A DNA stretch of 64,000 nt from Chiridota heheva (Eukaryota > Echinodermata > Holothuroidea > Apodida > Chiridotidae): contig JAIGNY010001829.1 in the NCBI GenBank assembly GCA_020152595.1, forward strand, positions 953,501 to 1,017,500, in the 5' to 3' direction. A program made the position numbers and the translations under genes. The notes beneath the pieces were generated by a model. The model did not search any database and was not told the DNA's origin. It saw only the letters and a program-made list of their open reading frames with translations. Numbering within the stretch: position 1 is the first letter of the stretch; every line of letters begins with the position of its first letter. This document shows positions 12,701-46,170 of the stretch, piece after piece.

Positions 12701-15700
12701 ATGTGCATGGTCCATTGGAGCACAAGCATATGGATTAGTCCCTAAGAAGCATGATCAGTGAATGTGCATGATCCATTGCAGCACTAGCATATGGATTAGT
12801 CCCTAAGACTCATGATCAGTGAATGTGCATGGTCCATTGCAGCACTAGCATATGGATTAGTCCCTAAGACTCATGATCAGTGAATGTGCATGGTCCATTG
12901 CAGCACTATCATATGGATTAGTCCCTGAGACTCATGATCAGCAAATATGCATGGTCCATTGCAGCACTAGCATATGGATAAGTCCCTAAGACTCATGATC
13001 AGTGAATGTGCATGGTCCATTGCAGCACTAGCATATGGATTAGTCCCTAAGACTCATGATCAGTGAATGTGCATGGTCCATTGCAGCACTAGCATATGGA
13101 TTAGTCCCTTAGGCTCATGATCAGTGAATGTGCATGGTCCATTGCAGCACTAGCATATGGATTAGTCCTAAGACTCATGATCAGCGAATGTGCATGGTCC
13201 ATTGCAGCACTAGCATATGGATTAGTCCCTAAGAAGCATGATCAGTGAATGTGCATGGTCCATTGCAGCACTAGCATATGGATTAGTCCCTAAGAAGCAT
13301 GATCAGTGAATGTGCATGGTCCATTGCAGCACTAGCATATGGATAAGTCCCTAAGACTCATGATCAGTGAATGTGCATGGTCCATTGCAGCATTAGCATA
13401 TGGATTAGTCCCTAAGACTCATGATCAGTGAATGTGCATGGTCCATTGCAGCACTAGCATATGGATTAGTCCCTAAGACTCATGATCAGCGAATGTGCAT
13501 GGTGCATTGCAGCACTAGCATATGGATTAGTCCCTGAGACTCATGATCAGTGAATGTGCATGGTCCATTGGAGCACTAGCATATGGATTAGTCCCTGAGA
13601 CTCATGATCAGTAAATGTGCATAGTCCATTGCAGCACTAGCATATGGATTAGTCCCTAAGACTCATGATCAGTGAATGTGCATGGTCCATTGCAGCACTA
13701 ACATATGGATTAGTCCTAAGACTCATGATCAGCAAATATGCATGGTCCATTGCAGCACTAGCATATGGATTAGTCCCTAAGACTCATGATCAGCGAATGT
13801 GCATGGTCCATTGGAGCACAAGCATATGGATAAGTCCCTAAGAAGCATGATCAGTGAATATGCATGGTCCATTGTAGCACTAGCATATGGATTAGTCCCT
13901 AAGACTCATGATGAGCGAATGTGCATGGTCCATTGCAGCACTAGCATATTGATTAGTCCCTAAGAAGCATGATCAGTGAATGTGCATGGTCCATTGCAGC
14001 ACTAGCATATGAATTAGTCCCTAAGACGCATGATCAGCGAATGTGCATGGTCCATTGGAGCACAAGCATATGGATTAGTCCCTAAGAAGCATGATCAGTT
14101 AATGTGCATGGTCCATTGCAGCACTAGCATATGGATAAGTCCCTAAGACTCATGATCAGTGAATGTGCATGGTCCATTGCAGCACTAGCATATGGATAAG
14201 TCCCTGAGACTCATGATCAGTAAATGTGCATGGTCCATTGCAGCACTAGCATATGGATAAGTCCCTAAGACTCATGATCAGTGAATGTGCATGGTCCATT
14301 GCAGCACTAGCATATGGATAAGTCCCTAAGACTCATGATCAGTGAATGTGCATGGTCCATTGCAGCACTAGCATATGGATTAGTCCCTAAGACTCATGAT
14401 CAGTGAATGTGAATGGTCCATTGCAGCACTAGCGTATGGATTAGTCCCTAAGACTCATGATCAGTGAATGTGCATGGTCCATTGCAGCACTAGCATATGG
14501 ATTAGTCCCTAAGACTCATGATCAGTGAATGTGAATGGTCCATTGCAGCACTAGCATATGGATTAGTCCCTAAGACTCATGATCAGTGAATGTGCATGGT
14601 CCATTGCAGCACTAGCATATGGATTAGTCCCTACGACTCATGATCAGTGAATGTGCATGGTCTATTGCAGCACAAGCATATGGATTAGTCCCTAAGGCTC
14701 ATGATCAGCGAATGTGCATGGTCCATTGCAGCACTAGCATATTGATTAGTCCCTAAGAAGCATGATCAGTGAATGTGCATGGTCCATTGTAGCACTAGCA
14801 TATGGATTAGTCCCTAAGAAGCATGATCAGTGAATGTACATGGTCCATTGTAGCACTAGCATATGGATTAGTCCCTAAGACACATGATCAGTGAATGTGC
14901 ATGGTCCATTGCAGCACTAGCATATGGATTAGTCCCTAAGACTCATGATCAGTGAATGTGCGTGGTCCATTGCAGCACTAGCATATGGATTAGTCCCTAA
15001 GACTCATGATCAGCGAATGTGCATGGTCCATTGCAGCATTAGCATATGGATTAGTCCCTAAGACTCATGATCAGTGAATGTGCATGGTCCATTGGAGCAC
15101 TAGCATATGGATTAGTCCCTAAGAAGCATGATCAGTGAATGTGCATGGTCCATTGCAGCACTAGCATATGGATTAGTCCCTAAGACGCATGATCAGTGAA
15201 TGTGCGTGGTCCTTTGCAGCACTAGCATATGGATTAGTCCCTAAGACTCATGATCAGTAAATGTGCGTGGTCCTTTGCAGCACTAGCATATGGATTAGTC
15301 CCTAAGACTCATGATCAGTGAATGTGCATGGTCCTTTGCAGCACTAGCATATGGATTAGTCTCTAAGACTCATGATCAGTAAATGTGCATGGTGCATTGC
15401 AGCACTAGCATATGGATTAGTCCCTAAGACTCATGATCAGTGAATGTGCATGGTCTATTGCAGCACTAGCATATGGATTAGTCCCTAATACTCATGATCA
15501 GTGAATGTGCATGGTCCATTGCAGCACTAGCATATGGATTAGTCCCTAAGACTCATGATCAGTGAATGTGCATGGTGCATTGCAGCACTAGCATATGGAT
15601 TAGTCCCTAAGACTCATGATCAGCGAATGTGCATGGTCCATTGCAGCACTAGCATATGTATTAGTCCCTAAGACTCATGATCAGCGAATGTGCATGGTCC

Positions 15701-18700
15701 ATTGCAGCACTAGCATATGGATTAGTCCCTAAGACTCATGATCAGTGAATGTGCATGGTCCATTGCAGCACTAGCATATGGATAAGTCCCTAAGACTCAT
15801 GATCAGCGAATGTGCATGGTCCATTGGAGCACAAGCATATGGATTAGTCCCTAAGAAGCATGATCAGTGAATGTGCATGATCCATTGCAGCACTAGCATA
15901 TGGATTAGTCCCTAAGACTCATGATCAGTGAATGTGCATGGTCCATTGCAGCACTAGCATATGGATTAGTCCCTAAGACTCATGATCAGCGAATGTGCAT
16001 GGTCCATTGCAGCACTATCATATGGATTAGTCCCTGAGACTCATGATCAGCAAATATGCATGGTCCATTGCAGCACTAGCATATGGATAAGTCCCTAAGA
16101 CTCATGATCAGTGAATGTGCATGGTCCATTGCAGCACTAGCATATGGATTAGTCCCTAAGACTCATGATCAGTGAATGTGCATGGTCCATTGCAGCACTA
16201 GCATATGGATTAGTCCCTTAGGCTCATGATCAGTGAATGTGCATGGTCCATTGCAGCACTAGCATATGGATTAGTCCCTAAGACTCATGATCAGCGAATG
16301 TGCATGGTCCATTGCAGCACTAGCATATGGATTAGTCCCTAAGAAGCATGATCAGTGAATGTGCATGGTCCATTGCAGCACTAGCATATGGATTAGTCCC
16401 TAAGAAGCATGATCAGTGAATGTGCATGGTCCATTGCAGCACTAGCATATGGATAAGTCCCTAAGACTCATGATCAGTGAATGTGCATGGTCCATTGCAG
16501 CATTAGCATATGGATTAGTCCCTAAGACTCATGATCAGTGAATGTGCATGGTCCATTGCAGCACTAGCATATGGATTAGTCCCTAAGACTCATGATCAGC
16601 GAATGTGCATGGTGCATTGCAGCACTAGCATATGGATTAGTCCCTGAGACTCATGATCAGTGAATGTGCATGGTCCATTGGAGCACTAGCATATGGATTA
16701 GTCCCTGAGACTCATGATCAGTAAATGTGCATAGTCCATTGCAGCACTAGCATATGGATTAGTCCCTAAGACTCATGATCAGTGAATGTGCATGGTCCAT
16801 TGCAGCACTAACATATGGATTAGTCCCTAAGACTCATGATCAGCAAATATGCATGGTCCATTGCAGCACTAGCATATGGATTAGTCCCTAAGACTCATGA
16901 TCAGCGAATGTGCATGGTCCATTGGAGCACAAGCATATGGATAAGTCCCTAAGAAGCATGATCAGTGAATATGCATGGTCCATTGTAGCACTAGCATATG
17001 GATTAGTCCCTAAGACTCATGATGAGCGAATGTGCATGGTCCATTGCAGCACTAGCATATTGATTAGTCCCTAAGAAGCATGATCAGTGAATGTGCATGG
17101 TCCATTGCAGCACTAGCATATGAATTAGTCCCTAAGACGCATGATCAGCGAATGTGCATGGTCCATTGGAGCACAAGCATATGGATTAGTCCCTAAGAAG
17201 CATGATCAGTTAATGTGCATGGTCCATTGCAGCACTAGCATATGGATAAGTCCCTAAGACTCATGATCAGTGAATGTGCATGGTCCATTGCAGCACTAGC
17301 ATATGGATAAGTCCCTGAGACTCATGATCAGTAAATGTGCATGGTCCATTGCAGCACTAGCATATGGATAAGTCCTAAGACTCATGATCAGTGAATGTGC
17401 ATGGTCCATTGCAGCACTAGCATATGGATAAGTCCCTAAGACTCATGATCAGTGAATGTGCATGGTCCATTGCAGCACTAGCATATGGATTAGTCCCTAA
17501 GACTCATGATCAGTGAATGTGAATGGTCCATTGCAGCACTAGCGTATGGATTAGTCCCTAAGACTCATGATCAGTGAATGTGCATGGTCCATTGCAGCAC
17601 TAGCATATGGATTAGTCCCTAAGACTCATGATCAGTGAATGTGAATGGTCCATTGCAGCACTAGCATATGGATTAGTCCCTAAGACTCATGATCAGTGAA
17701 TGTGCATGGTCCATTGCAGCACTAGCATATGGATTAGTCCCTACGACTCATGATCAGTGAATGTGCATGGTCTATTGCAGCACTAGCATATGGATTAGTC
17801 CCTAAGACTCATGATCAGTGCATGGTCCATTGCAGCACTAGCATATGGATTAGTCCCTAAGACTCATGATCAGTGATTGTGCATGGTCCATTGCAGCACT
17901 AGCATATGGATTAGTCCCTAAGACTCATGATCAGCGAATGTGCATAGTCCATTGCAGCACTAGCATATGGATTAGTCCCTAAGACGCATGATCAGCGAAT
18001 GTGCATGGTCCATTGCAGCACTAGCATATGGATTAGTCTCTAAGACGCATGATCAGCGAATGTGCATGGTCCATTGCAGCACTAGCATATGTATTAGTCC
18101 CTAAGACTCATGATCAGCGAATGTGCATGGTCCATTGCAGCACTAGCATATGTATTAGTCTCTAAGACTCATGATCAGTAAATGTGCATGGTCCTTTGCA
18201 GCACTAGCATATGGATTAGTCCCTAAGACACATGATCAGTGAATGTGCATGGTCCATTGCAGCACTAGCATATGTATTAGTCCCTAAGACTCATGATCAG
18301 TAAATGTGCATGGTCCATTGCAGCACTAGCATATGGATTAGTCCCTAAGACTCATGATCAGTAAATGTGCATGGTCCATTGCAGCACTAGCATATGGATT
18401 AGTCCCTAAGACTCATGATCAGTGAATGTGCATGGTCCTTTGCAGCACTAGCATATGGATTAGTCCCTAAGACTCATGATCAGTGAATGTGCATGGTCCA
18501 TTGCAGCACTAGCATATGGATTAGTCCCTAAGACGCATGATCAGTGAATGTGCGTGGTCCTTTGCAGCACTAGCATATGGATTAGTCCCCAAGACTCATG
18601 ATCAGTGAATGTACATGGTCCATTGCAGCACTAGCATATGGATTAGTCCCTGAGACTCATGATCAGCAAATATGCATGGTGCATTGCAGCACTAGCATAT

Positions 18701-21700
18701 GCATTAGTCCCTAAGACTCATGATCAGCGAATGTGCATGGTCCATTGCAGCACTAGCATATGGATTAGTCCCTAAGACTCATGATCAGTGAATGTGCGTG
18801 GTCCATTGCAGCACTAGCATATGGATTAGTCCCTAAGACGCATGATCAGCGAATGTGCATGGTCCATTGCAGCACTAGCATATGGATTAGTCCCTAAGAC
18901 TCATGATCAGTAAATGTGCATGGTCCATTGCAGCACTAGCATATGGATTAGTCCCTAAGACTCATGATCAGTAAATGTGCATGGTCCATTGCAGCACTAT
19001 CATATGGATTAGTCCCTGAGACTCATGATCAGCAAATATGCATGGTCCATTGCAGCACTAGCATATGGATTAGTCCCTAAGACTCATGATCAGTAAATGT
19101 GCATGGTCCATTGCAGCACTAGCATATGGATTAGTCCCTAAGACTCATGATCAGCAAATATGCATGGTCCATTGCAGCACTAGCATATGGATTAGTCCCT
19201 AAGACTCATGATCAGCGAATGTGCATGGTCCATTGCAGCACTAGCATATGGATTAGTCCCTAAGACTCATGATCAGCGAATGTGCATGGTCCTTTGCAGC
19301 ACTAGCATATGCATTAGTCCCTAAGACTCATGATCAGCGAATGTGCATGGTCCATTGCAGCACTAGCATATGGATTAGTCCCTAAGACTCATGATCAGTG
19401 AATGTGCATGGTCCATTGCAGCACTAGCATATGGATTAGTCCCTAAGACTCATGATCAGCGAATGTGCATGGTCCATTGCAGCACTAGCATATGGATTAG
19501 TCCCTAAGACTCATGATCAGCAAATATGCATGGTCCATTGCAGCACTAGCATATGGATTAGTCCCTAAGACTCATGATCAGCGAATGTGCATGGTCCATT
19601 ACAGCACTAGCATATGGATTAGTCCCTAAGACTCATGATCAGTGAATGTGCATGGTGCATTGCAGCACTAGCATATGCATTAGTCCCTAAGACTCATGAT
19701 CAGTGAATGTGCATGGTCCATTGCAGCACTAGCATATGTATTAGTCCCTAAGACTCATGATCAGTGAATATGCATGGTCCATTGCAGCACTAGCATATGG
19801 ATTAGTCCCTAAGACTCATGATCAATGAATGTGCATGGTCCATTGCAGCACTAGCATATGGATTAGTCCCTAAGACTCATGATCAGTGAATATGCATGGT
19901 CCATTGCAGCACTAGCATATGGATTAGTCCCTAAGACTCATGATCAGCGAATGTGCATGGTCCATTGCAGCACTAGCATATGCATTAGTCCCTAAGACTC
20001 ATGATCAGCGAATGTGCATGGTCCATTGCAGCACTAGCATATGGATTAGTCCCTAAGACTCATGATCAGTGAATGTGCATGGTCCATTGCAGCACTAGCA
20101 TATGGATTAGTCCCTAAGACTCATGATCAGTGAATGTGCATGGTCCATTGCATCACTAGCTTATGGATTAGTCCCTAAGACTCATGATCAGTGAATGTGC
20201 ATGGTCCATTGCAGCACTAGCATATGGATTAGTCCCTAAGACTCATGATCAGCAAATATGCATGGTCCATTGCAGCACTAGCATATGGATTAGTCCTAAG
20301 ACTCATGATCAGCGAATGTGCATGGTCCATTACAGCACTAGCATATGGATTAGTCCCTAAGACTCATGATCAGTGAATGTGCATGGTGCATTGCAGCACT
20401 AGCATATGCATTAGTCCCTAAGACTCATGATCAGTGAATGTGCATGGTCCATTGCAGCACTAGCATATGGATTAGTCCCTAAGACTCATGATCAGTGAAT
20501 ATGCATGGTCCATTGCAGCACTAGCATATGGATTAGTCCCTAAGACTCATGATCAATGAATGTGCATGGTCCATTGCAGCACTAGCATATGGATTAGTCC
20601 CTAAGACTCATGATCAGTGAATATGCATGGTCCATTGCAGCACTAGCATATGGATTTGTCCCTTAGACTCGTGATCAGCGAATGTGCATGGTCCATTGCA
20701 GCACTAGCATATGCATTAGTCCCTAAGACTCATGATCAGTGAATGGGCATGGCCCATTGCAGCACTAGCATATGTATTAGTCCCTAAGACTCATGATCAG
20801 TGAATATGCATGGTCCATTGCAGCACTAGCATATGGATTAGTCCCTGAGACTCATGATCAGCAAATATGCATGGTCCATTGCAGCACTAGCATATGGATT
20901 AGTCCCTAAGACTCATGATCAGTGAATGTGCATGGTGCATTGCAGCACTAGCATATGCATTAGTCCCTAAGACTCATGATCAGCGAATGTGCATGGTCCA
21001 TTGCAGCACTAGCATATGTATTAGTCCCTGAGACTCATGATCAGTGAATGTGAATGGTCCATTGCAGCACTAGCATATGAATTAGTCCCTAAGACTCATG
21101 ATCAGTGAATGTGCATGGTCCATTGCAGCACTAGCATATGGATTAGTCCCTAAGACGCATGATCAGTGAATGTGCATGGTCCATTGCAGCACTAGCATAT
21201 GGATTAGTCCCTAAGACTCATGATCAATGAATGTGCATGGTCCATTGCAGCACTAGCATATGGATTAGTCCCTAAGACTCATGATCAATGAATGTGCATG
21301 GTCCATTGCAGCACTAGCATATGGATTAGTCCCTAAGACTCATGAGCAGGGAATGTGCTTGGTCCATTGCAGCACTAGCATATGGATTAGTCCCTGAGAC
21401 TCATGATCAGTGAATGTGCATGGTCCGTTGCAGCACTAGCATATGGATTAGTCTCTAAGACGCATGATCAGTGAATGTGCATGGTCCATTGCAGCACTAG
21501 CATATGGATTAGTCCCTAAGACTCATGATCAGTGAATGTGCATGGGCCATTGCAGCACTAGCATGTGGATTAGTCCCTAAGGCTCATGATCAGTGAATGT
21601 GCATGGTCCATTGCAGCACTAGCATATGGATTAGTCCCTAAGACCTATGATCAGTGAATGTGCATGGTCCATTGCAGCACTAGCATGTGGATTAGTCCCT

Positions 21701-24700
21701 AAGACTCATGATCAGTGAATGTGCATGATCCATTGCAGTACTAGCATATGAATTAGTCCCTAAGACTCATGATCAGTGAATGTGCATGGTCCATTGCAGC
21801 ACTAGCATTTTTTTTAATTGAAATTAAATTTATCCTTTGAGGTTATTTTGATGGGTGTTTTCCTATGCTAGATTGGTGCTTTGCAAACAGAATTCATATT
21901 AATCAAGATTTGTTTACTTTCTTGATAACAGCAAGGCCAGTCAATAAAAGAGCTGAATCCATTCTGGAAAAATGGAGGAACAGGCCTCCCAGAGGAGGAC
22001 CCAAACAAAGATGACACTTCTGGGCCCAAACTGTCAGTGGCCTGGCTGAGAAGATCATATCAAAGAGCTGTAGAGCAGGCCAAAGAGCAAGGCAAATCAT
22101 TGGAAGAAATTGCTGCGGAGCGGTGGGGGGTAAGTTCAGGCATTACAGGCTTCAATGGCTTGAAACGTTACCAGTATCTCTGATACATATTTAGTGACCT
22201 GAGGTCATACATTTTGTTCCAGCATAATTAGTGATTTGCTTGTCAGTGTTCATTTAAATATTTTGCGCAATTAGAAACTTTGAATTGTAGTGTATATATT
22301 TCTCCAGGTTATGAAAATAAGCTGGCATTAAAGGATTAGTGAGGTCACCTTAAAGGATTAGTTTAGTGGTTGTGCAAATTCATCTTATATTAAAGAGGCT
22401 TCAAAGGAAACAGAATGTTGAAGAAAGCATTCAAAAGTCGTGTTCCATTAAGGAGATATTTAAGTTGAAAATTTGGCATTTTTTATGTAAAACGATTGAA
22501 AACAGACTAGTTGTGATGTCATAGCCTCAGATTCTCAAAGTTTTTATGTATTTTATCATATTTTGTCCTGAGATTTTGTGGCTTAACAACCATTAGATTT
22601 GTCAGGAAAGTAGTAAAACAATCTTGTAAGGTAATCCTAATTTACACCTGAAGAAATTTTGAGGAAAAATCATTCAAATAAAAAAAAAGCTGAATACATT
22701 TTCTGTAAAATATATTAACAATTGTTAAGAATGTGAGGATGAGAGTACCAACCTTCCATAGTAGACTTATCACACCAGTTATTTCTACACAGATGAGCTT
22801 TAAACTTGAATATCTTTTAAGGTAGTAAGACTTTCGAATGCTTTCTTCACCATTTTGTTTCCTTTAAAGTCCTCTTTCATATAAGATATTCTTGCTTGAC
22901 TGCTGATCCTTTAAAACATTGTTTATTATAACCCCAACCCCAACAAAAATTATACTGTCTTCAATGATTTCATCAATTTGTGTTCATTGCTGATGTTATA
23001 ATGTTTAAAAGTGTACAGAAAATCTTACATTTTCTTGCTGTCCTTCAATGTTTTTGAGTTAGTTGTTTTTACATGAAATTATTGGGAGGGAGCTATACAC
23101 ATATTCATACTCAACAGATTCATGACAAAAATTGCACAAACAAAGATACTTCTATTCATCTTTTGATTATATAAATCATTAAAAGGAATTTAATTGAAAA
23201 AGAATTAAGCCATTAGAGTTCATATTATTTTCTAGAAAAAGTTGAAAATAAATTATTTTAACAACCTTTTAGTAATCCCTCTTTTTTAAGCTAAAATCTG
23301 GTCTATATTCTCTTTTCAAGTCATTGGAAAATATGCAACAGAAGCTTGCAGTGGCAGAAAAGCAAGCAAGGCTGGAGAATGAATCAAGACGAGATAAACA
23401 AGGCTGGAGGAAGCCATATCAGGGAAGAATCTATGATAAACACAGGATCATGAGGATAGATATATGCAAACTAGTAGATCAGGTGATAGGTCACCTGACA
23501 GAAGTAGGAGATCACCTGACAGAAGTAGGAGATCACCTGACAGAACAAGAAGATCACCTGACAAAAGTAGTAGATCACCTGACAAAAGCAGGAGATCACC
23601 TGACAAAAGCAGGAGATCACCTGACAAAAGCAGGAGATCACCTGACAAAAGCAGGAGATCACCTGACAGAGGTTCTAGATCTCCTAAAAGAGGGAAGGAT
23701 AGATGTTCTCCTGAGAGAGACAGGGAAAGGAAAGAAGAAAGGATGAAGATAGATATAGAGACAGGACAGTTGATACATACAGAGGAGAAAAAGGTTGGGT
23801 AGGAGCAGAGAGAGATCGAACTAATTTTGATGATAGGCCCAAGTCAAAATTTCGGAAGCCATGTGAAGACGACGAGGATGATACAAGATCAAAGAGATCT
23901 ATTTTTAAGGAATCTTTAGGGATGTTGAAAGGACAGTTTAGGAAACCTGGAGAAGAGAGAATGTCAGCAGGAGGAGGTGGGTCTAGTAGCGGAGGAGGAT
24001 CAAAGGGAGGGGGATGGAGGAAGCCAGGTTTCAAGAAACCTCAAGAGGAGGATGAAAATGCTAAGGAAGAAGCAATTAAGAAGATACCTGAGACATCAGG
24101 AAGGAGGGAGAGGAAGTCTTCGTCATCTTCGTCTTCATCTTCAAGGAGTGCTAGTCCTGAAAGGATGCCCTATCATCTGTGGAGGAACCCCCATCCGCCT
24201 CTGCTAGCGATGAGGATGATAGCGAGGATGAAGAAGAGGTGAAGATTTTAACTGAAGAGGAGATAAACCAACTGGGCGCTAAACTTATCAAAGCTGAAAT
24301 GTTCGGAAATGCAGTAAGTTTTTTTTAAGCTTGGGGTGGTTTTATTTGAGAGCATTTTGTATTTTATGTAGAATTCTTAATAATATTTTTTTTATTATGT
24401 ATCTGTGATAGCCATGAGCAGTATTTGCTCACTGAAAGTGGGGGGGGGGGAGGGGGAAAAGTCACAAACGAAAATTTGTAAAATAAAATCACACTAAGAT
24501 ACAAAACATCACCATACAAAATTAATAAAAAAGGAAAAGTGGGGGAAATTCCACCCCCCACCCCCCACCTCCACCCTTGAACCATCCAAATCCTGCTTAA
24601 GGTGATAGCTATATAAATTGATATGGAAACTCCCTGTCCAAGGTCTGACTATATAAGTGTCTTATAAATAGAAACTTTTGAGGATAATCATGAAATTTAC

Positions 24701-27700: not shown

Positions 27701-30700
27701 TGTTCAGAATTCAAAAACTGATCTGCTCGGATTTTAATGCTCTTTCAACCAATAGAGAAGTAGCTGTGTCCATGGACCTTCATAGTTGATCTTCTTTTTT
27801 CTTTCCAGGCAATGAAATCTTTAAATGCTGACTATGATCTTGACGACATGTTCGTGTCATCCACAAACAAAGTCTCGGAGAAAGAGGAAGCCAAGCGAGA
27901 CCGGGAACGTGCAATTCACGAGCATCAGAGGCTGGAGGCTGCCCTCTCTAAATGTCCGTTCTGCTTGGACAGCCCCGAAATGCAGAAACATCTCATTGTT
28001 GCATTGGGCATCAAGGTAATACAAGTTATGGATATTTTTCAGAGAAAATAAAAAAAAGAATTGATTTTTTTTAAATTTGTTTCTTTGAGGTGTATAATGT
28101 ATACCCTCCCTACTTCCCCCCGAAATTTTTTTTTTTTATAAATGATCTAGTAAAGAAAAGGTCAGTTTAAACATTTGAGATATATTGTTATTAGATGCGG
28201 TTTAATAAAATGTCAGTTGATTACTTGACTGCCACCAGTCATTTTCATGACATGTGTTTATTTGATTCCTGTTAAAATCCTCAGACCTATCTTTGTGTTC
28301 CACGGCATCAGTCCCTGACAGAGGGCCATTGTCTGATTATCCCGGTGCAGCACACGCTGTCCAGCACGGCAGTGGATGAAGATGTCTGGAGTGAGCTGCA
28401 GGTGAGCTAATAGATCAAGCAATTTCATTCTATCAATCATTGTCATTGACAAAGCACCGAATTGAAGAAAAGCTTGCTCTTAACCCTTACGCGGACATGG
28501 CAAGACTGATTAGACATGCACTTTTCAAACAATTATTTTGCTTCTTCAAATAGTCCCACAGTAGTGATCCTGGTATTATTAAAAGAGCTCGATTAAGAGC
28601 TCAATAAAATTATAATTTTTATCAGGGTTATATTGAGAATTTTTGAGAAAACTCGCTTGGAAAACAGTAGAAAGAAACATTTTGAAAAATTACGTCAAAT
28701 TTCAAATTTCAAAAACTTTCTTGTCGTACTTCCAGACCTTGCTTTTGCCTCAAAAACCCGTGAGAAATTGTTAAAGACATCAATGCATCCAATTCCAGTC
28801 AAATTTTGACTGCCTCTATCATCGTTATCATTTTTTGGCAAAATGTGTGCAAATTTTCATGATTTTTAGCCTTTTTGAGACCATTTTTGAAGAAAAAATT
28901 GTAGCTTCTGATCATAATACAACTTCCCAATCCAGAATATACCGTTGGAATCGTAATTTGCCATATTTTTAATTGAAAACACAAAGAGCAACTATTCCCT
29001 CTTTATCCACACCGAATATAAGTTTTAAAACAAATCCACAACGTACTCATAGGCAATATGGTGTAGCGATGTTCATGCGGCCACTTCACGTGGAGTGACC
29101 TGGGTTTAAAAACCGGATCGGACACTCGGCTTTGTTTTAACCGGAGTAATTACAGCAGTGTTTTTTTTTTCTTCATTGTTTTTGCATATTTTGCTTTGAG
29201 AAAAAAAAAAAAAATAGAAAGGAAAGGAAAGGAAATTTCACAAACAATCTAAATATGAAAAAAAAAATCCTCTATTTTCATTTTTCACAAGGAAATAATA
29301 CAAGCTTAAAAAGTGGTCAATTTTGACCTAATTTTACCTGTAATTTGCAAATATATGTTGATATTTTCTTTATTTTGAATCTTTTATTGAAAAGTTTAAT
29401 GTCTTAGCATTCATATAAACCAAACTTGTAGTGATAGAAAATGAAAGGAAAGTTGTGAAAATTAATTTTAAAAAAAAAGGTTCCGAAAAATCACAATCAC
29501 ATTTTGAACCGTGTGTGGCACGAAGGGTTAAAGGTGTATGGACAGGAAGAGATTTTATATTTACCAACAAAAGCTTTTAAAGTCTGAACAGGCAAGTCTT
29601 TAAATTATGTCAAAAGTACTTGTAGTCTCTGAGTTATGGCCAATTAAAGTTTAAAGAACTTTTATTGTATGAAAAAGTTTTGATGTCTGAAAAGAGAAGA
29701 CAACTCAAAATCATAATCATAATTATAAGGAAAATCATAGTTTCTCTTGATGTGATGTCACAAAACTTGAAGTCAACAAAGGCAATATATATTGTTGACT
29801 GCCATTCAGCCACCTGTTCTAGAATGTTGCGCAGGATGAAAATTTGCACGGTGGTACTCCTTCCTCTTCTAAATCAAGCCTGTTCATCTCTCATCTTACT
29901 GTCAAAACCGTTATTGCATACAGTAGTATTGCCTTTCTTAGCTATTTTTGTTATCAGTCCTTGCTTCCATGATTTTGGTGTAACTTCCTTTTCCCATACA
30001 ATTTCTGAACAGCTCTTCAAGCCATAATACTGATGTGCATATATCAGCTTTTAACAACTCAGCAGTTATATTATCCTTGCCTGCAGCTTTGTTATTCTTT
30101 AGCTTCATCAATGCTCCTTTTATTTCACTTCTTGTAATATAAGTGGTACTGATTTTGTCTATTTCAAGGTCACATGTTATGTTAGGAAGTGGAAAAACAG
30201 GATCTGGTCTATTCAGTATCTCCTCGAAATGCTCTTTCCACCTCTCTCTTTTTTTCTTTTTCATCCGTTGATACATTCCCATCCTTGTCTCTTATAGCAC
30301 TCCCAACCTTGGTCCCTTCATTGCAAATTGTTTTGGTTATCTTGTAAAGCTCTCTCATTCTGCCATTACTAGATGCTTCCTCTGCAGGTGTAGCATGGTT
30401 GTCAATCCACTTTCTTTTATCTCTCCTTAAGCTTTTCTTCACATCTTTGACTTGAATATCTCCTTAACGGAATAAGAGTTTTGAACGCTTTTTTTACCAT
30501 TTTGTTGGTTACTTGCGTTAGCAAAGGAACCTATGTATTCAACTTGGCGTGTGTGTCTGTGACACTTGCTTAGGTACGCTCTAACTCAAGATAGGAAAAT
30601 CGGTATGGAGTCACATTTGGTAGGTAGGTCCGCCATATTGTAAAGATGTGCCCTATTGTTTTTGGTGCCCGTAGGGGTCACCTGGGGTCAGATATCGGCC

Positions 30701-33700
30701 AAAAATGGAAAAACTTTTAGTGACAATAACTCTTAGTGCCAAGATTCTGTACATTTAATATTTTGGGACAAGTTGTGTATGGAGTAGGGGAAAATTTTCA
30801 TACAAAACGGCCATGTGATTGAAGGTCAAGGTCAGGGTCAAAAACAATTTTTTGTCAAAGTGCATGGAAAAACTTTTAGTGACAATAACTCTTAGTGCCA
30901 AGATTCTGTACATTTGATATTTTGGGACAAGTTGTGTATGGAGTAGGGGAAAATTTTCATACAAAACGGCCATGTGATTGAAGGTCAAGGTCAGGGTCAA
31001 AAACAATTTTTTGTCAAAGTGCATGGAAAAACTTTTAGTGACAATAACTATTAGTGCCAAGATTCTGTACATTTGATATTTTGGGACAAGTTGTGTATGG
31101 AGTAGGGGAATATTTTCATACAAAACGGCCATGTGATTGAAAGTCAAGGTCAGGGTCAAAAACAATTTTTTGTCAAAGTGCATAATATTGAATTTGGACT
31201 TGGACATTGGACTATGGACATTGGACTCGAATTTGACAATGATGATAACCCTTAGTGCCAAGATTCTGTACATTTGATATTTGAGACAAGTTGTGTATAG
31301 AGTAGGGGAATATTTTTTAACAAAACGGTCATGTGATTGAAGGTCAAGGTCAGGCTTAAAAACAATGATAAAATAATGAAAATAAGCTTGACGCCAAATA
31401 GTTATTGATTTGAAGAACAAATGATATAAATCATTTTTATGATTTACTTGAATTAAGTTTACTTGTTTTCCATTAAACACAGTTTTTGATAAGAATACAT
31501 GGAATGGTATAAATAGAAGTCCAGAGTCCATGCCATGATACCCTAAGAGCTGTTGAAAGACTAGTGTGGTTTTACATCAGCAAGGCCAGGAACTATCATT
31601 CTATTTTGCTATTACGTAATACACTTTTATAACATTGACCTCGCTCTGTCTCATTGTGAAGTTACATTTAAAGTGTTATGGATATCTTTTGTGAGGTGGT
31701 ATGAATGATGCATTCCAGTGGGTTGTATTATTGGTTTATATATATTCTTAAGAATAGAATATCTGTCTAGCAGACCCCATCAGTGTGATATAGTAAAAAT
31801 ACAAATTCCTGAAGTGTGATTAAATCTTGAATGCCACTGACATACTACAATCCAGGGTTCAATACTAAATGCACAAAGTATAAAGACCAATGAGCCTAAA
31901 AGCTATTTCAGTTTTGATGGCTGCTTATCATCTTTTATGTAAAAAAAACAGACACCTGAGAAATTTATAATTCACCCCACCTGTTGCATTAAAAGACAAG
32001 TCATAAAGATGTCAACAGAAAATCATTGGTCCATGCTGCTGACCTGTTTTGTTTTCTTTGCCACCTGTATTTGTTTAGCTTAGAAAGGGAATTTACTGTG
32101 TGTTGTCTACCTCCATGTGTCTACAGACATTTTCTCCATGCAATAAAATGTAGAAGGTCACTTATGAGGCAAATACTAGCCATGGAGATACACTATTTAA
32201 TCAACCAAAGATATGTGTAATGAACACATCCCTGAATCAACCAATTACACTGCACCTTGTTTAAAACCAAGACTGTTAGAACACCAATCACGTTATCCAC
32301 AAGTTTTACTCTTTTGCATATTAAAAATTGGCCAGTTAGTCGGGTATATACGGGTGGTTAATGTGCACCCCCCCCAGGACTCTTCCAAACCAACTTTTTT
32401 AGCTTCTTTTTATGGTCCTAAAACACATTTAAGATGTTAACAAAAGAAAAATCTCGGCACTCTGGCGATATTCAAGATGGCGTCCAAATTGCGTCCAATA
32501 TGGCGTCCAAAATGGTAAAATTCTATAAAAAGTCATATATTGGCCATAAATAATAATTTTTATTGAAAGGAAACCTCAAAATATTGTTCTAGAAGCTTTT
32601 TGGAGCACTTGCAACCATATTCATATTTTTTGCCATGTTCCTTATCCAATATGGCGGCCAAGATGGCGTCCAAAATGGCGTGAAAATGGTAAAATTAAAA
32701 AAAATCAAAAAGTTATTGACCATAAACAATAATTATCATTGAAAAGAAACCTCAAAATATTATTCTAGAAGGTGTTGTGAACACTTGCAACCATATTTAT
32801 ATTTTTGCATAACTTTGCCATGTTCAAAATCCAATATGGCGGCCAGTATGGCATCCAAAATGGCCGCCAAGTATATCAAAAAAGAAAATCATGAAAAAAA
32901 TTGCTTACATATGGACATTTTATATAGCTAATGTCCACCGCTTATCTGTTCATAAGAGTTACTAGTTTCTTCTACAATGTTCATATTTCATACATTTGAA
33001 ATAACCTGTGTTTATAATGAATCAGTCACTGTCAGAATCAGAGTCTAGGCTGGAATAATCTGATTCATCTGGAACACCATCTTCCTCAGGATATTCTTCA
33101 TCAGATGAATCCTCCTCAGTGTCATCAGCCAATATATCTAGAAGACATGACGGCAAGATAGGTCCCTCTGACCACACTGGCTCAATGTATCCATCACAAA
33201 GAGCCCATCCATGTGCTGTAGGAGGCGGGATTTCAAGTATGGGTATGTGTGCCCGTTTCCATTGAGCTACCCTGTAATTTGCGCGTTTGATGTGTGGGAT
33301 CAGCGACTGTCTACAAGGTGGCATCCTGGACAAATCTACTTTGGATGACTTGATGGTCTCTCCTTCGCCAACCATCTTCTTCAACATTGCACATCGAACT
33401 TGATTGGCATGCTTAAGTCTAGGAAAGCCATATAGAGCACACACAAACTCATCCAGCTCATCAACTAGACTCTCCTCAACTTCCCAGCTATTGCCCAATT
33501 TCACGAAAGAGTCTTGGTAGCGTGGCCTCTTTTCAAGTGTCTTCAGAGGAATTTTCTTCCCCTTTCCTTTAAAAGCGCAGTTGCAATCTTCACCAGTAAG
33601 CAGTAAATGCCGAGAAGTGCCTCACAGTATGTGGGTCCCAAGTCTTTTGCTATGTCACCGATGTCAAGGAGTCTCGGTTAACTCCACTGCCAGTGTCAAA

Positions 33701-36700
33701 CAGAACAGTCAGTGGACGCAATTTCTCTGCATAGTACAACAATATGAAGAAGATATCGCTATCTGGGCTGTGTACAACTGCCTGTTTGTAACCATGTTCC
33801 TTGGCATAAAACAAATACAGAATCACTGTTTCCTCTTGGTTAGATCTAAGCCCTGGGATTTCATGTTGTTGCACAGATGCACCGTCGGTAGATGTAAGCA
33901 AGAACGGAACACCTTCAACCACAAGTATAACTTTCCTTCCTACTAAACGTCGTGCTGCTTCTGGACTACTCCAAGAGCGAAGCATGAGCTGACACAACTG
34001 CTTTTTGTTTTCGTCATTCTGCAGAAAGACCTTGAAATTGGCTGGCTTTCTGGTGTTGATGCCTTCCAAGAGGATTTTCTCACTGCAGCCACGGCGAAAC
34101 CTCCTGACTTTTGATGGACTCTTCCAGATACATGTCAGTTGAGAAGATTACATCTGGCTTATGGCTTATTTGGTCAAGCAGCTTGAAAGAAATTTGCTTG
34201 AAGGTTGGAGGCAGATCCTTCAATGTATGGAAATGGGCATTCCCATCTTCAATGAAGAGTGTTTCTCCAGCATTTCTGGACGGTAAGGAAGCTTGAGGCA
34301 CGTCGCTTGTGAGGAAGTGGACTGCTGCTGCTTTGTTGGTTTTTGCCATGAAGCCATCGGGAGTACCTAGAGCATGAGGTACTGGTGTAATGCAGTAATT
34401 CATCAGTTCATCAATGCTTACAGGTTGAGAGAGCATCTGTGACTTCACAAGAATTTGAAAGGCTATATTCCCCTGCTCTTGATATTTCAAAGCATTTCCT
34501 TGAGCAGATGTTAGCTTAACTTTCTTGTTCAACTTTTGCATGGTCTTCAGCTTTAACTTCTTCAAAGGGTTAAAGAATTCCTTTAATCCTTCGTCGTCAT
34601 CTTTTTCTTTAGCCTCTCCTCAACAAACTTCTCCTTCTCCAACCTGCCAGCTTCCTCAGCAGTTAGAACATCATGTTCTATCTCAGAAGGTATGGGATTG
34701 CCAGATAAAATCACATACAAGCGGTCTTTGTCTGCTATGTCGAATGGGTTGAGGAAGCCTTCTATGGCATCCATTACTCGTTGTACTGCAGCTTCACTCC
34801 TCTTGATTTCTGTCTGGAGTTGCTCACGGTGCTTGCCACACTTGGCGTTATCATTGTCAAGACACATGTCACACATCTCCAATGTGGCCTGGTAGTACTT
34901 ACTACGTTCTGATGTCGTCCGAATCCATCGCTGGTAAGCACCGTAGTTCTCTAAGATTCCAGTAAGACCAGCTCCACCAGCACCAGCATGGGACTTGGCA
35001 AACTTCATGAAGGTTTCCTCTATCGTCTTGTCTCACGGCACATAAGTTACCGGGTATTCTAGACCTGGCAACGGATATGGCTCCTTTCTCTAGTAATCGA
35101 GTAGCTCCTGGATGACTGACCTCAATGTTGGCGAGAAATGCATCAAACCAGGTGAGGTATCTAGAGTAATTGATTCCTCCAAAGCTAAAGAACAAGTCTG
35201 CCATGTCCGCCATGCACTTGTGGTACAATTTCAGATTGTTTGTCTTTACTGCATAGAGCAGCATGAAGATACGGTGTGCATGATCCAAAAAGATATCCAG
35301 AACTTGGCGGTCTTTCCTAGTTCTCCATTTAGGACTCGCTCTTGGAACACCGTGTAGTCATTCAGATACTGCTGAATTGTAGGATCTTGAAGAACAGCAT
35401 TAAAGTTCTCAGCATTACAGAGTGTTATCAAGGCATCCAGAGCATCTGCATTTGTGGGGCCATGAGCAGTTTCATCCCTCTGGGCGATATAAGCTGAAAG
35501 AAGTAGTCGTTCTAAGGCTTCACTTACTACTTTCAGACACCACATGGACTTGCTATACGCTTTGCCATTTAGAACTCCTTTCAGGCAGCCAGAGGTTGTG
35601 AGATTTGCTTCTTTAATGAGCTCAGAGTAGCCAACCAGCCATCTTATGTCCAAGCATATTCAAGTAGTTCATGATGGTATGGAAGGTTCCAATGAGGACG
35701 ATGTGGTTCTTGTAAGCTGCAGGGTTGTCCCATATGATAGGCATGGCTTTCATGATTACACCAAGGTCAAATGTAGTTATTGTGTAACGCTGTCCAACTT
35801 CCTCAGTAGCCTTCTCGCATTGACGCAACAGTTCTTTCACAACATTGTACTCTGTGATAGGCTCGGTAATGGACGGATAAAAGTCAATGGTGGTAAGTTC
35901 ACTTGGGGCATCCAATGGCAGAAATGAACCCACACAGTGCTGGTATCTGCTGCTTGTTAGTACTACTTGCTTTTCGACAGAAAGCCCAGATGAAGTACAC
36001 TGTTAAAGCTCTCTCTAACAAAGCCAAATTTTCTTCTGGCTGCTGGACATTCTGTAGGTCTATGTTAGGACCTTTTCTCTTTGCAATATGAAAAGGTGGC
36101 AATGGAGCAGGTGTGTCTAGCTTGAGAGAGTGCTCTTTAGTTCTGGGAATTGAGACTTGTGTGTGTACTGGGTCTTCAGGCTTCTTGGCTTCCTGTAGCA
36201 TAATCCCAGCTGCAGTATTGATAGCAGGTCTGCTGTGTATGCCAGTAAGGAGTTGGTTGAAGTTGTCCCACTCAGAATGGAAAAGAACATTATGCGGCGA
36301 TTTCACAATCTGTGCTGTCAGTAGTGAAGAACGTTGTTCCAGAGCAACTGCAAGCGCAGTCTCCAACTCCACAGAAAAGAGGTAACTCTTGCAATGGCCT
36401 AATCTGCTCAGGAGGGTAAGCAACTGTCTACTTCGGTAGAGGTGGCGCAATGTCATGCAGAGAAGGATGTGCTTGGGAAGAAGCCATTCTCCATTTGAGA
36501 CAGCCCTGCAAAGATCTTGTCCAATGGAGAACACTAGCTGCTCTGCCTGTCTTGAGGAGCTTTTGGATTGACCAGATATGACCAGGCTGAGGAAGCGTTT
36601 CAAATTTGGTGGTATTACTCCATCCTTTACTTCCAATTCACTTGGTGGAGGAGGCCACGTGAGCTCCTTGGTCTCTTTGAATGCACAGTATGATGCCTCG

Positions 36701-39700
36701 TAGCAGCAGTGCAACATCTTTCATGGCATCCTTTGAGGCAAGTTGATAGGTTTGAGTAATTGCTTCTTCGACAGAGATGCTGGAGTTGTAGACAAGATAA
36801 AAGGGCCAGCCCTTACCCTCTGGGTCAGCTTTGTGAATGCAAGTTTGGGGCCAGGTTAGAATGGTTTTCTAGCTTGCGTTTAAGTTTTTCTGCCGGTAGT
36901 TTGGATTTAACGTTGTAGTGTTGTTGCTAACTCAGTCTAAAATTTTCGGAATAGGACTCTGCAAAAACGGTCTGCGATACCGACTTGGGATTTAAAAGGG
37001 TAAATTGGATTCATGCAGACCAAATTGATGCATACAAAACAATTTTCCCATCGCCATCTATGATTTAGAAAATAGTAACAATACAAACATGGTTGGTAAG
37101 AGTTCCCAATGGCCCTAAAATAATATTCTGTACTTTCTTTTAATTATGGACAATATATGACTTTTAAATTAGAATTTTGTCATTTTGGCGGCCATTTTGG
37201 ACACCATATTGGCCGCCATATTGGATTTGGAATATGGCAAAGTTATGCAAAAATATAAATATGGTTGCAAGTGTTCCCAACAGCTCCTATAATAATATTT
37301 TGAGGTTTCTTTTTAAAGATAATTATTGCTTATGGCCAATATATGACTTTTTAGAGAATTGTCCCATTTTTGGCGCCATTTTGGACGCCATCTTGAATAT
37401 CTCCAGAGTGCCGGATTTTTTTTTTTGTTAACATCGTGAATGTATTTTAGGACTATAAAAAGAAGCTAAAAAAGTTGGTTTGGAAGAGTCCTGGGGGGGG
37501 TGCAAATTAACCCCCCGTATGTACCCGTCTAAGTGGTGGTTAAGTGAAGAGTATCACAAGTTTTGCTCATTTGCATATTAACAATTGGCCAATCATAGAA
37601 TTAGGGTTGGTTAACTGAAGAGGATGTCAGTTGGAAGTGGGAGTTGCACCAGTGTAATTGTCTTGCCATTCCGCTTCATATTGACTTTGACCTCTGGTGA
37701 CCTCTAATGTTAACATTTTTTTTTTTTGGTATTTCGATAATTTTGACCCCATTTTCGGATTTCAAAAGTACCTTCCGATCAAAAAAGGCAATTGGTAGAT
37801 TCCTGTACGACCTTCATGTGCGGAGTTATCGGAGGTCAAAATTTCTTAAGTCTAGTTAGGATGGTTGTACGGACTTGCCTTTTTGTTTTTGGAATCAGAG
37901 TGTCAAGTTACATTTGACTCGAGGTCAAAAGGTCAATAGTTAAATCTGTAAAATTATGCTTATTTTGGGAGAAAAATGGCTATAATAACAAGTTAGTAAT
38001 TTTTTGGTATGTGATAGACCTTGATGAGCTGCAAAGAATGAGCCATTTTCCCACTTAAATAGCATGCCTGGTTCTGGAGTTACGGATGACCTCCATCTGC
38101 CCCAAAATTTCATTCTGTAGCAAGGAACCATGGTGCCCTTGGGCTCTTGTTTCTTTTGAAGTCCCCTTTCATGTAAGATAGACTTGCGTGACCCCTGAAC
38201 TAATTCTTTAAAACTTGTTTGGAACTATTGATCCAAAGCATGAACATAAAACTATTAATCATCATGAACATACCACTAATCACCATGAACATACCACTAA
38301 TCACCATGAACATACCACTAATCACCATGAACATACCACTAATCACCATGAACATAAAACCACTAATCATCATGAACATAAAACCACTAATCATCATGAA
38401 CATAAAACCACTAATCATCATGAACATAAAACCACTAATCACCATGAACATAAAACCACTAATCATCATGAACATAAAACCACTAATCACCATGAACATA
38501 AAACCACTAATCATCATGAACATAAAACCACTAATCATCATGAACATACCACTAATCATCATGAACATAAAACCACTAATCATCATGAACATAAAACCAC
38601 TAATCATCATGAACATAAAACCACTAATCATCATGAACATAAAACCACTAATCATCATGAACATAAAACCACTAATCATCATGAACATAAAACCACTAAT
38701 CATCATGAACATAATACCACTAATCATCATGAACATACCACTAATCACCATGAACATAAAACCACTAATCATCATGAACATAATACCATTAATCATCATG
38801 AACATAATACCACTAATCATCATGAACATAATACCACTAATCATCATGAACATAAAACCATTAATCATCATGAACATAAAACCACTAATCACCATGAACA
38901 TAAAACCACTAATCATCATGAACATAAAACCACTAATTATCATGAACATAAAACCACTAATCATCATGAATATAAAACCACTAATCATCATGAACATAAA
39001 ACCACTAATTATCATGAACATAACACCACTAATTATCATGAACATAACACCACTAATCACCATGAACATAAAACCACTAATTATCATGAACATAAAACCA
39101 CTAATCATCATGAACATAAAACCACTAATCACCATGAACATAAAACCACTAATCACCATGAACATAAAACCACTAATCATCATGAACATACCACTAATCA
39201 TCATGAATATAAAACCACTAATCATCATGAACATAAAACCACTAATTATCATGAACATAAAACCACTAATTATCATGAACATAAAACCACTAATCATCAT
39301 GAACATAACACCACTAATCACCATGAACATAAAACCACTAATCACCATGAACATAACACCACTAATCATCATGAACATAAAACCACTAATCACCATGAAC
39401 ATAAAACCACTAATCATCATGAACATACCACTAATCATCATGAACATAATACCACTAATCACCATGAACATAAAACCACTAATCGTCATGAACATAAAAC
39501 CACTAATCATCATGAACATATCACTAATCACCATGAACATAAAACCACTAATCACCATGAACATAAAACCACTAATCATCATGAACATAAAACCACTAAT
39601 CATCATGAACATAAAACCACTAATCATCATGAACATAATACCACTAATCATCATGAACATACCACTAATCACCATGAACATAAAACCACTAATCATCATG

Positions 39701-42700
39701 AACATAATACCATTAATCATCATGAACATAATACCACTAATCATCATGAACATAATACCACTAATCATCATGAACATAAAACCACTAATCATCATGAACA
39801 TAAAACCACTAATCATCATGAACATAACACCACTAATCACCATGAACATAAAACCACTAATCATCATGAACATAAAACCACTAATCATCATGAACATAAA
39901 ACCACTAATCATCATGAATATAAAACCACTAATCATCATGAACATAAAACCACTAATTATCATGAACATAACACCACTAATTATCATGAACATAACACCA
40001 CTAATCACCATGAACATAAAACCACTACTTATCATGAACATAAAACCACTAATCATCATGAACATAAAACCACTAATCACCATGAACATAAAACCACTAA
40101 TCATCATGAACATAAAACCACTAATCACCATGAACATAAAACCACTAATCATCATGAACATACCACTAATCATCATGAATATAAAACCACTAATCATCAT
40201 GAACATAAAACCACTAATTATCATGAACATAAAACCACTAATTATCATGAACATAAAACCACTAATCATCATGAACATAAAACCACTAATCACCATGAAC
40301 ATAAAACCACTAATCACCATGAACATAACACCACTAATCATCATGAACATAAAACCACTAATCACCATGAACATAAAACCACTAATCATCATGAACATAC
40401 CACTAATCATCATGAACATAATACCACTAATCACCATGAACATAAAACCACTAATCGTCATGAACATAAAACCACTAATCATAATGAACATATCACTAAT
40501 CACCATGAACATAAAACCACTAATCACCATGAACATAAAACCACTAATCACCATGAACATAAAACCACTAATCATCATAAACATAAAACCACTAATCACC
40601 ATGAACATAAAACCACTAATCATTATAAACATAAAACCACTAATCATCATGAACATACCACTAATCATCATGAACATAAAACCACTTTTCTACTTGCAGG
40701 CATGAGATGTAATGTCCATCAGATCTACTTGAAAAGTTTAGTGGTCAAGTTCATCTTATATGAAAGAGGAATTTTAAAGAAACAAAATAGTGAAGAAATT
40801 ATTTCAATATCTTATTCCATTACGGAGATATTCAATTTTTAAAGTTGTCTCTCATTAGTGTAAAAATGGCTGATGTGGACTGTGTACTGCAGAAGGTTGG
40901 CACCCTCCTCCTCACTTTAAATGATTGTTAATATACTTTTAATAAGTAAAATGCATTTAAATTTCTTACAAACTGAATTTGTTTCCATCAAGCTTTCTTC
41001 AAGTGATAAATTGAAATTACCTTACTAGATTCAGTTTCACTACTTTCCTGACATATCCAATGGTTTTAGAGGCACAAAATCTGAGGAGAAGATATGATAA
41101 AATACATATAAAGACTTTGAGGAATCTGAGGATGTAACATCACAACTAGTCTGATTTCAGTTGTTTCTATACGAGATGGACAGAACTTAAAACTTGAATA
41201 TCTCCTAAATCGAGTAAGATTTTCTGATGTTTTCTTTTCCATTTTGTTTCTTTCTAATTTCTCTCTCATATAAGATGGAACTTGCTTGACCACCTTTAAG
41301 TGATTTTTAGGGTCGAAAGTTTCACTCACTTTCGTTATTACAGATTTTTCGCAAGGGGTTGACCAAGATGTTTGAGAGGCGTGGCCTGGATGCGGTGTTT
41401 ATGGAGTTTGCGTCGCACCCTCGCAAGCAGCGTCACATGGGTCTTGAATGTGTCCCCATGCCCAAAGAAATAGGGGACATGGCACCAATATATTTCAAGG
41501 TTTGTAAGGTATATCAATATGTAATGCATAAGGTATATACTGACTGGTTAGTACCAGCTGGAAGGCTATGTAAAGCTGCAGGATGCAGAGGGGGTAAAGG
41601 GAAAACTCCCCACTAATGATAGGATTTCACCTTCCCTGTAACATGTTTTCTCTTAAATTAGGAGGTAAAAACTGGTAAATTATTTTTTTAAACTTAGTAA
41701 AATTGAAGGAAAATCTGGTATAATTTGGCCAAATTTCATGCATGTTAAGGAAATTTCCCAAATTGAGAAGAAGAAAAAAAAGAATGATATTCTGATTAGC
41801 AGCAATGTTTGTTGGAAACTTAATGCACCAGAGGAATTTCTTCTGCTTGTAACCAGGAAATGTTTGGGGTTCATGCCCCCCTGAGCGGTGACCCTTCCAT
41901 GTTTGAAATTCGTGCCCCCATGAGAGGTGACTCTTCCTACACCCTTGAGGACATGGGTTTTATCCTCAGTCCAGTCATCCAAAAAATTAAGAGCACCCTC
42001 TCACTTGGTACACTCACTCACTTTGGGATTGTTGCAGGGTAATGGTACAGCCTTTACAGGGTATCATAACCTTTTTAAAGAAATCTGGAGTGGGAGGGCA
42101 AAACATATAGAAGGGATATATGATCTCCACAGTGTCATATTCAATGGGAGGTTAGGGGAAAACTTCCCCCTCTCCTTCTTGCTGAAATTCCATAAGTAAA
42201 ATGCAAGTAGCAGAATATACCAATCTAGTATACATTTTCAAAAAATAATAATGAATTTATAAAGGTTAAATATCGGCCAAATAATTTAGTGATGAATTTG
42301 CTCCTTGTGAATTTTACATTTTGGGAAATTTTTAGGCAATTTTCTTCAATTTCCTTCATTTTTGGGAAATTTTTCAGGCAATTTTATTCAATTTTCGGGA
42401 CATTTTCTGCAATTTTCAGGAAACTTTCCTTCTTTTCAGGAATGTGTATTCGATTTCCGGGACATTTTCCTCAATTTTGGGGAAATTTTGTTCGATTTTC
42501 TGGACATTTTTTTTAATTTACGGGAAATTTCCTTCATTTTCGGGAAATTTCTCATATTATTACTAAAATTTGCTATGAATTACTTCATTTGTACAATTGT
42601 ATTGTTAATGAGGAAGTACAATTCCTCCAGGGCCAGTTTTCTCCATTTCCCCACCATTCCTGCGCCTCTGGGTACAGCCCTTTTCCTACAATTACTGTTT

Positions 42701-44103: not shown

Positions 44104-45440
44104 AGGTGCAGAGTCTGGAACAGACATCGGCAATCATGGCCCTCCAGTCATTTCTGTTTAGAGCTCAATGCATAATTTTCTTGTTACTTAGGCTGTTGTT
44201 GGTTGCCCAGTTGTTTAGGCTTTGGACATATTTAATTCGCTGCCTTCCTCTACTTCTTTTGCCCTCAATTTTCCCACATACTGCAAGCTGTTCCTACCCA
44301 CCCTCCCAATAAACATGCCTGAAAAATTCCATCTGTCTCCTTCTGATGGCATTGGGTAGGGACCTGTCCATGCCTGAAGCTATCAAGATGGACATCATCA
44401 TTTGTTTTCCTTTCTGTCCAAAATATTTTCAACATTCTCCTAATGAACCACATTTCCATAGCTTCTAATCTTTTCTTGATGTCACTGGTAATTGTCCAGC
44501 ATTCACAGCCATAGAGAAGAGTAGACCATGCATATGCCTTCAAGACACAGGCTTTCATGTCCATTTCAATATTTCTATTCTTCAGAATTATCTGATTTAT
44601 TTTTGTAAACATGTCTTTGGCAATTGCAATGCGTTTTCTAACTTCGTTAATGCACCAACTATCTGATGTTAGTGTGTAGCCCAAGTACATAAACTGTTGT
44701 ACTTGTTTAATTATTTCTCCTTGGCTTTGTATACTACATAATACATTTATGGCTTTTTTTTAAACCACCATACATTCTGTTTTCTTTACATTTAGAGACA
44801 GCCCTCTCTTGTCACTTTCCTCTACAACTTTATCCAGAAGAGACTGCAGTTTTTCTTCTGACTCTGCTATAAGTACCATGTCATCTGCATAGCGTAGGTT
44901 ATTCATATTATAGCCTCCAACTTTCAGCCTCTCAAGACTGTCGATGTTACAAAGTATTGTTTCACTGTAAATGTTGAAAAGATCTGGTGACAAAACACAC
45001 CCCTGCCTGACTCCTCTTCGGATTACCTTAAATTCACTGTTATCTCCTTCAAGTCTTATTGCTGCTTCCTGGTCCTAGTATAGGTTTCTTATGACTCTTA
45101 GGTCTTTTCTGTCAATGTTTAAATTACTGAGTATTTCAAAGAGATCTTCATGTTTGACTTTGTCAAAGGCTTTGGAGTAATCAATGAAACATAAATATAA
45201 ATCTTTCTGTACTTCTATGCACCTTTCCATGATCATTGATAGTGTAAATATTGCATTCCTAGTGCCTTTGTCTACAACAAAACCAAATTGTGTTTCTGAG
45301 ATTTCTGGCCGGATACTATTTCTCATCCTGGACATTAGAACACGAAGCAAGACCTTGGTGATATGGCTCATCAAGCTAATGGTCCTGTGTAGTTTGCATT
45401 CTGTTGCACCTGGTTTCTTGGATAAGGTTATGAAGATAGA
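44104..45440 (-). pseudogene. RTE-type LINE ORF2, RT to C-terminus (decayed)
   Basis: Minus-strand order: ISLMSHITKVLLRVLMSRM, FGFVVDKGTRNAIF, LCFIDYSKAFDKV, then RQGCVLSPDLFNIYSE, NLRYADDMVLIAE (catalytic YADD), MYLGYTLTSD, LYGCECWTIT, RLEAMEMWFIRRMLKI, KIEGKRSRGRQRIKYV and RNDWRAMIADVCSRL. This covers the RT palm, thumb and C-terminal tail. A TAG (complement of 45075-45077) replaces an expected Trp, and several frameshifts follow, so it is inactive. 5'-truncated; ends in (AG)n. Lies between the two host genes. Confidence 0.9.
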
Positions 45441-46170
45441 TTTCCAAAGATGTAAAATAAATTCCAGCGATAGAAACAATTCCAGCGGTGTGAAATAAAT
45501 TGTAAATTTCAAGCAAAGGAATATTTACATTGGCAAAATGATTGAATAGATAATTTTGTACTAACAATGAAACAAACAAATATTTTTAGTGGGTTTAGTT
45601 TTGATTAATTCAGCATATTCACGTTTGTAAGATTGTTGTATGTCTTAAAACTATTCATTTTAAGTTGAGTCAAGGGAAGTACTATGGGTCCTGTAAGCTG
45701 GGTTTGTATCTTCTATCCATGCTGACCATTGCCTGATTGAAAACATTAATAAGAGCATTCATGAATACACATTTAATGAAACATTAATTAGCCATAAATT
45801 CAAAACTTCATTTTTTTTATTCAAAACTTAATGCTCTTTTTTAAAGTGTTTAACCTCAAATTATAAGGTGAAAAAGAATGTCAAACACAGGTTTTGCCGA
45901 TATTCAAGCTCTGCATGCACCATGTGTTTGCATTGCTGATGTCCAAGACATATCTTTGCATTGCATATATCCAAGACAATCTTTGCATATGTCCGAGACA
46001 GTACGGCCTGCAATCTTGTACAAACTGTTGGAGCACTCGGAAGAGTTTTACTCACATTATTCATGTCATTAACTGCAACATCTAAACCATGAATTGAAAT
46101 TGTATATTCCCCACTAAACTATTTAGTGTTAGATTGAATAACAAGTTTAGAAATTGTCTCAACAAAGGTC
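45441..46170. other. Intergenic stretch left of 27-bp array
   Basis: No gene. About 45917-45998 holds three short, degenerate iterations of a TTTGCATATGTCCAAGACA phrase. Confidence 0.45.

Follow-up and report, generated by a model that had tools for sequence, protein, structure and literature searches.

The window, the whole stretch of 64,000 nucleotides of Chiridota heheva DNA that was analysed, contains a 5195-bp element at positions 32337 to 37531, one copy of a group of related elements referred to below as the 5.2-kb subgroup. The element is bordered on both sides by the triplet AGT (32334 to 32336 on the left, 37532 to 37534 on the right), which the comparison of flanks identifies as a target-site duplication. 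Each end is formed by a terminal inverted repeat region, the left one on the plus strand (32337 to 32870) and the right one on the minus strand (37140 to 37531). The inverted repeats are imperfect and start with TAGnCGGGTAnATACGGG; the arms at 32332 to 32498 and 37370 to 37536 are 167 nt long and 89% complementary, and shorter inverted arms extend inward for about 530 nt on the left and about 390 nt on the right. In the end alignment the two ends of the element read TAGTCGGGTATATACGGG and TAGACGGGTACATACGGG, the termini being TAG...CTA. Motifs of 12 bp of the type ATGGCGTCCAAA, present as internal repeats of the left region, are clustered within the terminal repeats and could be binding sites for a protein. 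The minus strand of the element holds the remains of one long protein-coding frame (33025 to 36868), which in this copy is broken by frameshifts and split into overlapping pieces.

Tandem arrays and possible pieces of another type of mobile element are found in the same window. A 10.6-kb array of a 61-bp unit (11211 to 21808) comprises 174 copies with 94% matches, and an array of a 24-bp unit (38239 to 40686) comprises 104 copies and is read through on the minus strand as a repetitive open frame of 829 aa. Pieces resembling a LINE reverse transcriptase, with FIDYSKAFD and similar motifs recognised by eye in the translations, lie on the minus strand at 45078 to 45524, 44268 to 44759 and 29941 to 30291.

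Copies of the element and the duplication of the target site

At the DNA level, the element had at least 103 matches in the host genome, which comprises 1.1 Gb in 3744 contigs. The best 28 of 186 candidates were scored, and these copies share 97%–100% identity with the window element over the longest match. The window element belongs to a cut-and-paste transposon family that has multiplied recently. The ends were analysed in this sample, consisting of the window copy and 27 others with their flanks, and both ends could be placed in 24 of the 28; the count of duplications leaves out L012, L019 and L023, whose right tip is unlike the element, and L026, which runs into a stretch of N. All 24 copies are flanked by identical 3-bp sequences. 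Flush repeats of 2 bp or 4 bp were seen in none of them, and those of 6 bp and 9 bp in one copy each, the single 9-bp match (L021) being located in a TAT microsatellite. Between different copies, the flanks matched in 9.4% of pairs.

When the 24 joined flanks were compared with the sequence set of this analysis, two of them (L017 and L020) aligned through the junction. The repeat entered by L017 has an unoccupied relative in the window itself (53073 to 53334), which was used as the empty site; the alignment spans 264 columns at 88%, and the relative has a single TAT at the junction where L017 has TAC. For L020, adjacent units of the tandem array in which it lies provide the empty site, again with a single TAT. 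Because all 24 copies and the two related empty sites agree, we consider the boundaries of the family and the 3-bp duplication to be settled. The initial annotation had proposed a DNA transposon with ends at 32337 and 37531, long terminal inverted repeats and a 3-bp AGT duplication, and had suggested the alignment of many copies as a way to check the ends and the duplication length. The copies and empty sites bear out the ends, the 167-nt arms confirm the long inverted repeats, and the AGT found on both sides agrees with the 3-bp duplications of all 24 copies.

The duplicated triplets are TAT in seven copies, ATA in three, TAC and AAG in two each, and ten further triplets in one copy each. A palindromic target preference, first suggested by the base counts, was rejected, as the pairing around the centre of the duplication (4, 5, 8, 8, 1, 9, 5 and 5 matches of 24, with 4.7–7.3 expected) did not rise above the flank controls. 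Transposons of the PIF/Harbinger and CACTA/EnSpm superfamilies also make 3-bp duplications, in agreement with the length observed here, and the family might belong to one of these groups and merely carry a nuclease-like domain. Nevertheless, PIF/Harbinger elements insert into TWA and have two ORFs, whereas the triplets are free in this family, with TWA in 2 of 24 copies (one TTA and one TAA), and the ends are TAG...CTA rather than CACTA. Moreover, Pfam contains transposase models of the Harbinger and hAT types, and neither type was matched by the protein pieces searched. We regard membership in either of the two superfamilies as quite improbable.

The coding frame and the subgroups

Relatives of the window copy retain longer parts of the coding frame. 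The stop-to-stop open frames reach 964 aa in L017, 903 aa in L020 and 1187 aa in L036, the last being the longest found, and each of the three ends in a frameshifted tail upstream of the nuclease-like motifs described below. In L057, pieces of 778 and 415 aa lie in one frame with a stop between them, and part of the N-terminal region is missing. A wider copy search, in which the best 47 of 1534 candidates were scored, was also carried out. In total 34 copies were read, namely the 28 described above, L036 and L053–L057. The search for an intact relative, proposed in the initial annotation, gave a negative outcome: a single uninterrupted frame for the entire protein is present in none of these 34 copies, some of which were read incompletely. 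An apparent open frame of 2641 aa (C426) was rejected, as it represents a copy with a broken coding frame beside a stretch open in all six frames, which we take to be a run of N.

The lack of an uninterrupted frame in the copies read would be expected if the repeats were fossils and the whole family were dead, a possibility compatible with the explanation that we favour below. Against it, the copies differ by about 1%, open frames of 903–1187 aa exist, and the copies read are a small part of the 1534 candidates. The coding region of the 19 copies in the 5.2-kb group contains 215 gap cells, of which 92 recur in more than one copy and 123 are confined to a single one; these figures count cells rather than events and may include some assembly errors. 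Many of the gaps therefore post-date insertion or stem from the assembly, which also speaks against a dead family. The extinction of the whole family appears unlikely. The pN/pS ratio between ORF pieces, which is in line with the transposon reading, was 0.61–0.67, calculated from pairs that are not independent.

Two subgroups can be distinguished by a 9-bp gap that deletes Asp-Ser-Arg from the sequence EETDSR. The gap is found in 19 of the 28 copies, including the window copy, and the nine bases are present in the other nine. Among the six further copies, which are not a random sample, the nine bases are present in L036, L056, L057 and L053 (Asp-Ser-Gln) and absent from L054 and L055, so that over the 34 copies 21 lack the nine bases and 13 have them. 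The coding anchor lies 210–221 bp from the inner repeat in all 19 copies of the 5.2-kb group, 567 bp from it in L027, L030, L031 and L036, and 820 bp from it in L028; L029 has 555 bp of different make-up at this position, and the anchor search did not detect the coding anchor in L032–L035. The 567- and 820-bp segments encode a zinc-finger-like stretch, CIFC...YHPKCRKHY, which is present in L027, L028, L030, L031 and L036 and absent from L029 and the window copy; the 5.2-kb subgroup is without this coding segment. The variation of the N-terminal coding-end segment in length and content among L027–L031 and L036 (555, 567 or 820 bp) gives the impression that internal deletions arose independently several times.

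Over the region corresponding to 33022 to 35660 of the window, copies of the 5.2-kb group differ from one another by 0.72% on average (171 pairs) and the nine remaining copies by 1.33% (36 pairs); comparisons across the two sets give a mean of 1.36% (171 pairs). The simplest reading is that the 5.2-kb subgroup is young, amplified and internally deleted, and is moved by the proteins of fuller copies, the nine bases presumably having been lost in this group rather than gained in the others. The window copy is non-autonomous, being frameshifted and devoid of parts present in its relatives. Because it is frameshifted and lacks both the zinc-finger segment and Asp-Ser-Arg, it was probably moved in trans.

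Candidate nuclease and transposase motifs in the protein

The C-terminal part of the coding frame contains, on the minus strand, HSPDSDIFF (33746 to 33772), a candidate acidic DxD motif of a FEN/XPG/PIN-like domain, and the acidic motif QEETVIL (33818 to 33838), which reads QEETDSRVIL in L028 and other copies. On the same strand, a 15-residue motif (33553 to 33597) seems to resemble the Gly-Asp helix-turn-helix of FEN/XPG nucleases. In a sequence search of the PDB, a 165-aa window piece with HSPDSDIFF had the 5'-3' exonuclease 9l56 in second place (E 0.14), outranked by an unrelated hypothetical protein (E 0.12). With a longer piece from L028, 9l56 was ranked first at a weak E of 0.45, and the alignment placed EETD, SPDSD and TGKD in register with the acidic motifs of the nuclease. 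The 1187-aa frame, which ends before the nuclease motifs, had no match in the PDB comparison. A profile built from six phage flap nucleases aligned the acidic motifs with a score of 20.9, in comparison to 13.1–16.1 for four other parts of the protein; the score did not exceed the best of 60 shuffles, the top two of which reached 22.1 and 20.8. The single-sequence AlphaFold model of window positions 33650 to 34147 had a pLDDT of 43, too low for use. Given the E values of 0.14 and 0.45 and a profile score within the range of the best shuffles, the similarity is weak and non-significant and the FEN/XPG-like nature of the C-terminal part is only plausible. The XPG-like reading of HSPDSDIFF in the initial annotation may be retained at this level: the motif register with 9l56 favours it, and the E values and the shuffles, which were not clearly beaten, weigh against it.

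Three further minus-strand motifs are candidates for the catalytic residues of an RNase-H-like (DDE) transposase core: EWDNFN (36256 to 36273) for the first Asp, TFDLG (35760 to 35774) for the second Asp and KTIEET (35012 to 35029) for the Glu. This assignment was made by resemblance to a large family of "uncharacterized" proteins of marine invertebrates, whose motifs we take to be DN(V/F)(D/N), GxFHxxM, an IEQT-like and a TGCD-like sequence. In Pfam, NCBIfam and PHROGs no profile scored above the cut-off for the protein pieces searched; these pieces matched neither the XPG model of Pfam nor any helicase profile, and the sub-threshold Pfam matches (Not3, E 0.0089; QVR, 0.024; OTT_1508_deam, 0.05; DUF2681, 0.16; HS1_rep, 0.21) are in no way coherent. 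Two protein scans of viral contigs found no relatives, and two motif patterns had no match there. A third pattern matched 10 viral stretches; the nine peptides listed, from 9 of these 10 loci, are all without the flanking motifs and were attributed to chance. One motif pattern had no match in a collection of genome contigs, nor did the 1187-aa frame in the phage records searched.

That the FEN/PIN-like domain, and not the DDE core, cuts DNA in transposition, or that it is at least indispensable for transposition, seems to us highly improbable. If it were true, the successful 5.2-kb subgroup, whose domain is devoid of Asp-Ser-Arg, would parasitise the fuller elements as a large group mobilised in trans. 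The two subgroups, one having the acidic Asp-Ser-Arg and one lacking it, form a ready-made contrast that could show whether movement depends on the nuclease-like domain.

Relation to Academ and other transposon superfamilies

The AcademX protein has a Cys-rich zinc finger. AcademX and the Academ superfamily were reportedly treated by Kapitonov and Jurka in 2010 and by Kojima in 2020, and the papers of Kojima (2020) and of Yuan and Wessler (2011) are two of the defining ones. AcademX is described by duplications of 3 or 4 bp and an encoded nuclease, and AcademH by duplications of 9 or 10 bp and an encoded helicase (PMC10045372); the 100 curated Academ elements of bivalves have a mean length of 5565 bp (PMC10294476). 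The assignment to Academ in the initial annotation fits the published description of AcademX in the 3-bp duplication and probably in the nuclease-like motifs, with description, rather than Academ sequences, being the object of the comparison. The failure of Pfam, PHROGs and NCBIfam to recognise the pieces searched would also suit a distinct superfamily with a FEN/PIN-like C-terminal domain, whose sole links with Academ would be the nuclease and the length of the duplication. Such a separate origin is rather unlikely: the combination of a 3-bp duplication, a nuclease and a length of about 5.5 kb is the one described for AcademX and for bivalve Academ elements, and Pfam may simply be without an Academ model. 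The family, which has been active recently, most likely represents the AcademX branch of Academ, with a zinc-finger/DDE/FEN-like protein, a reading to which we assign a probability of about 0.75.

According to the AcademX reading, full members would encode one long minus-strand protein with a zinc-finger-like part at its N terminus, an RNase-H-like (DDE) core in the middle and a FEN/XPG-like nuclease at its C terminus. After binding to the long inverted repeats, this protein would excise the element and insert it by a 3-bp staggered cut, often at TAT or ATA, giving rise to the 3-bp duplication. The window copy would be mobilised by the protein supplied from better copies. What is new is the transposon family with its exact ends, the Academ superfamily being already known. 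A protein unrecognised by the profile libraries searched can now be assigned to a transposon whose many young copies have exactly placed ends and a duplication of 3 bp.

Among the known systems, PIF/Harbinger resembles the family in its 3-bp duplication and differs from it in having a TWA target and two ORFs, as opposed to free triplets and one ORF. AcademH shares with it the superfamily name, its described duplication of 9–10 bp and helicase contrasting with 3 bp and no helicase profile in the pieces searched. The description of AcademX allows duplications of 3 or 4 bp, whereas here only those of 3 bp occur (24 of 24 copies, with 4 bp in none). The likeness to AcademX lies in the 3-bp duplication and probably in the nuclease-like domain, and the window element also has terminal inverted repeats. 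Its length of 5195 bp is close to the mean of 5565 bp given for bivalve Academ elements (PMC10294476).
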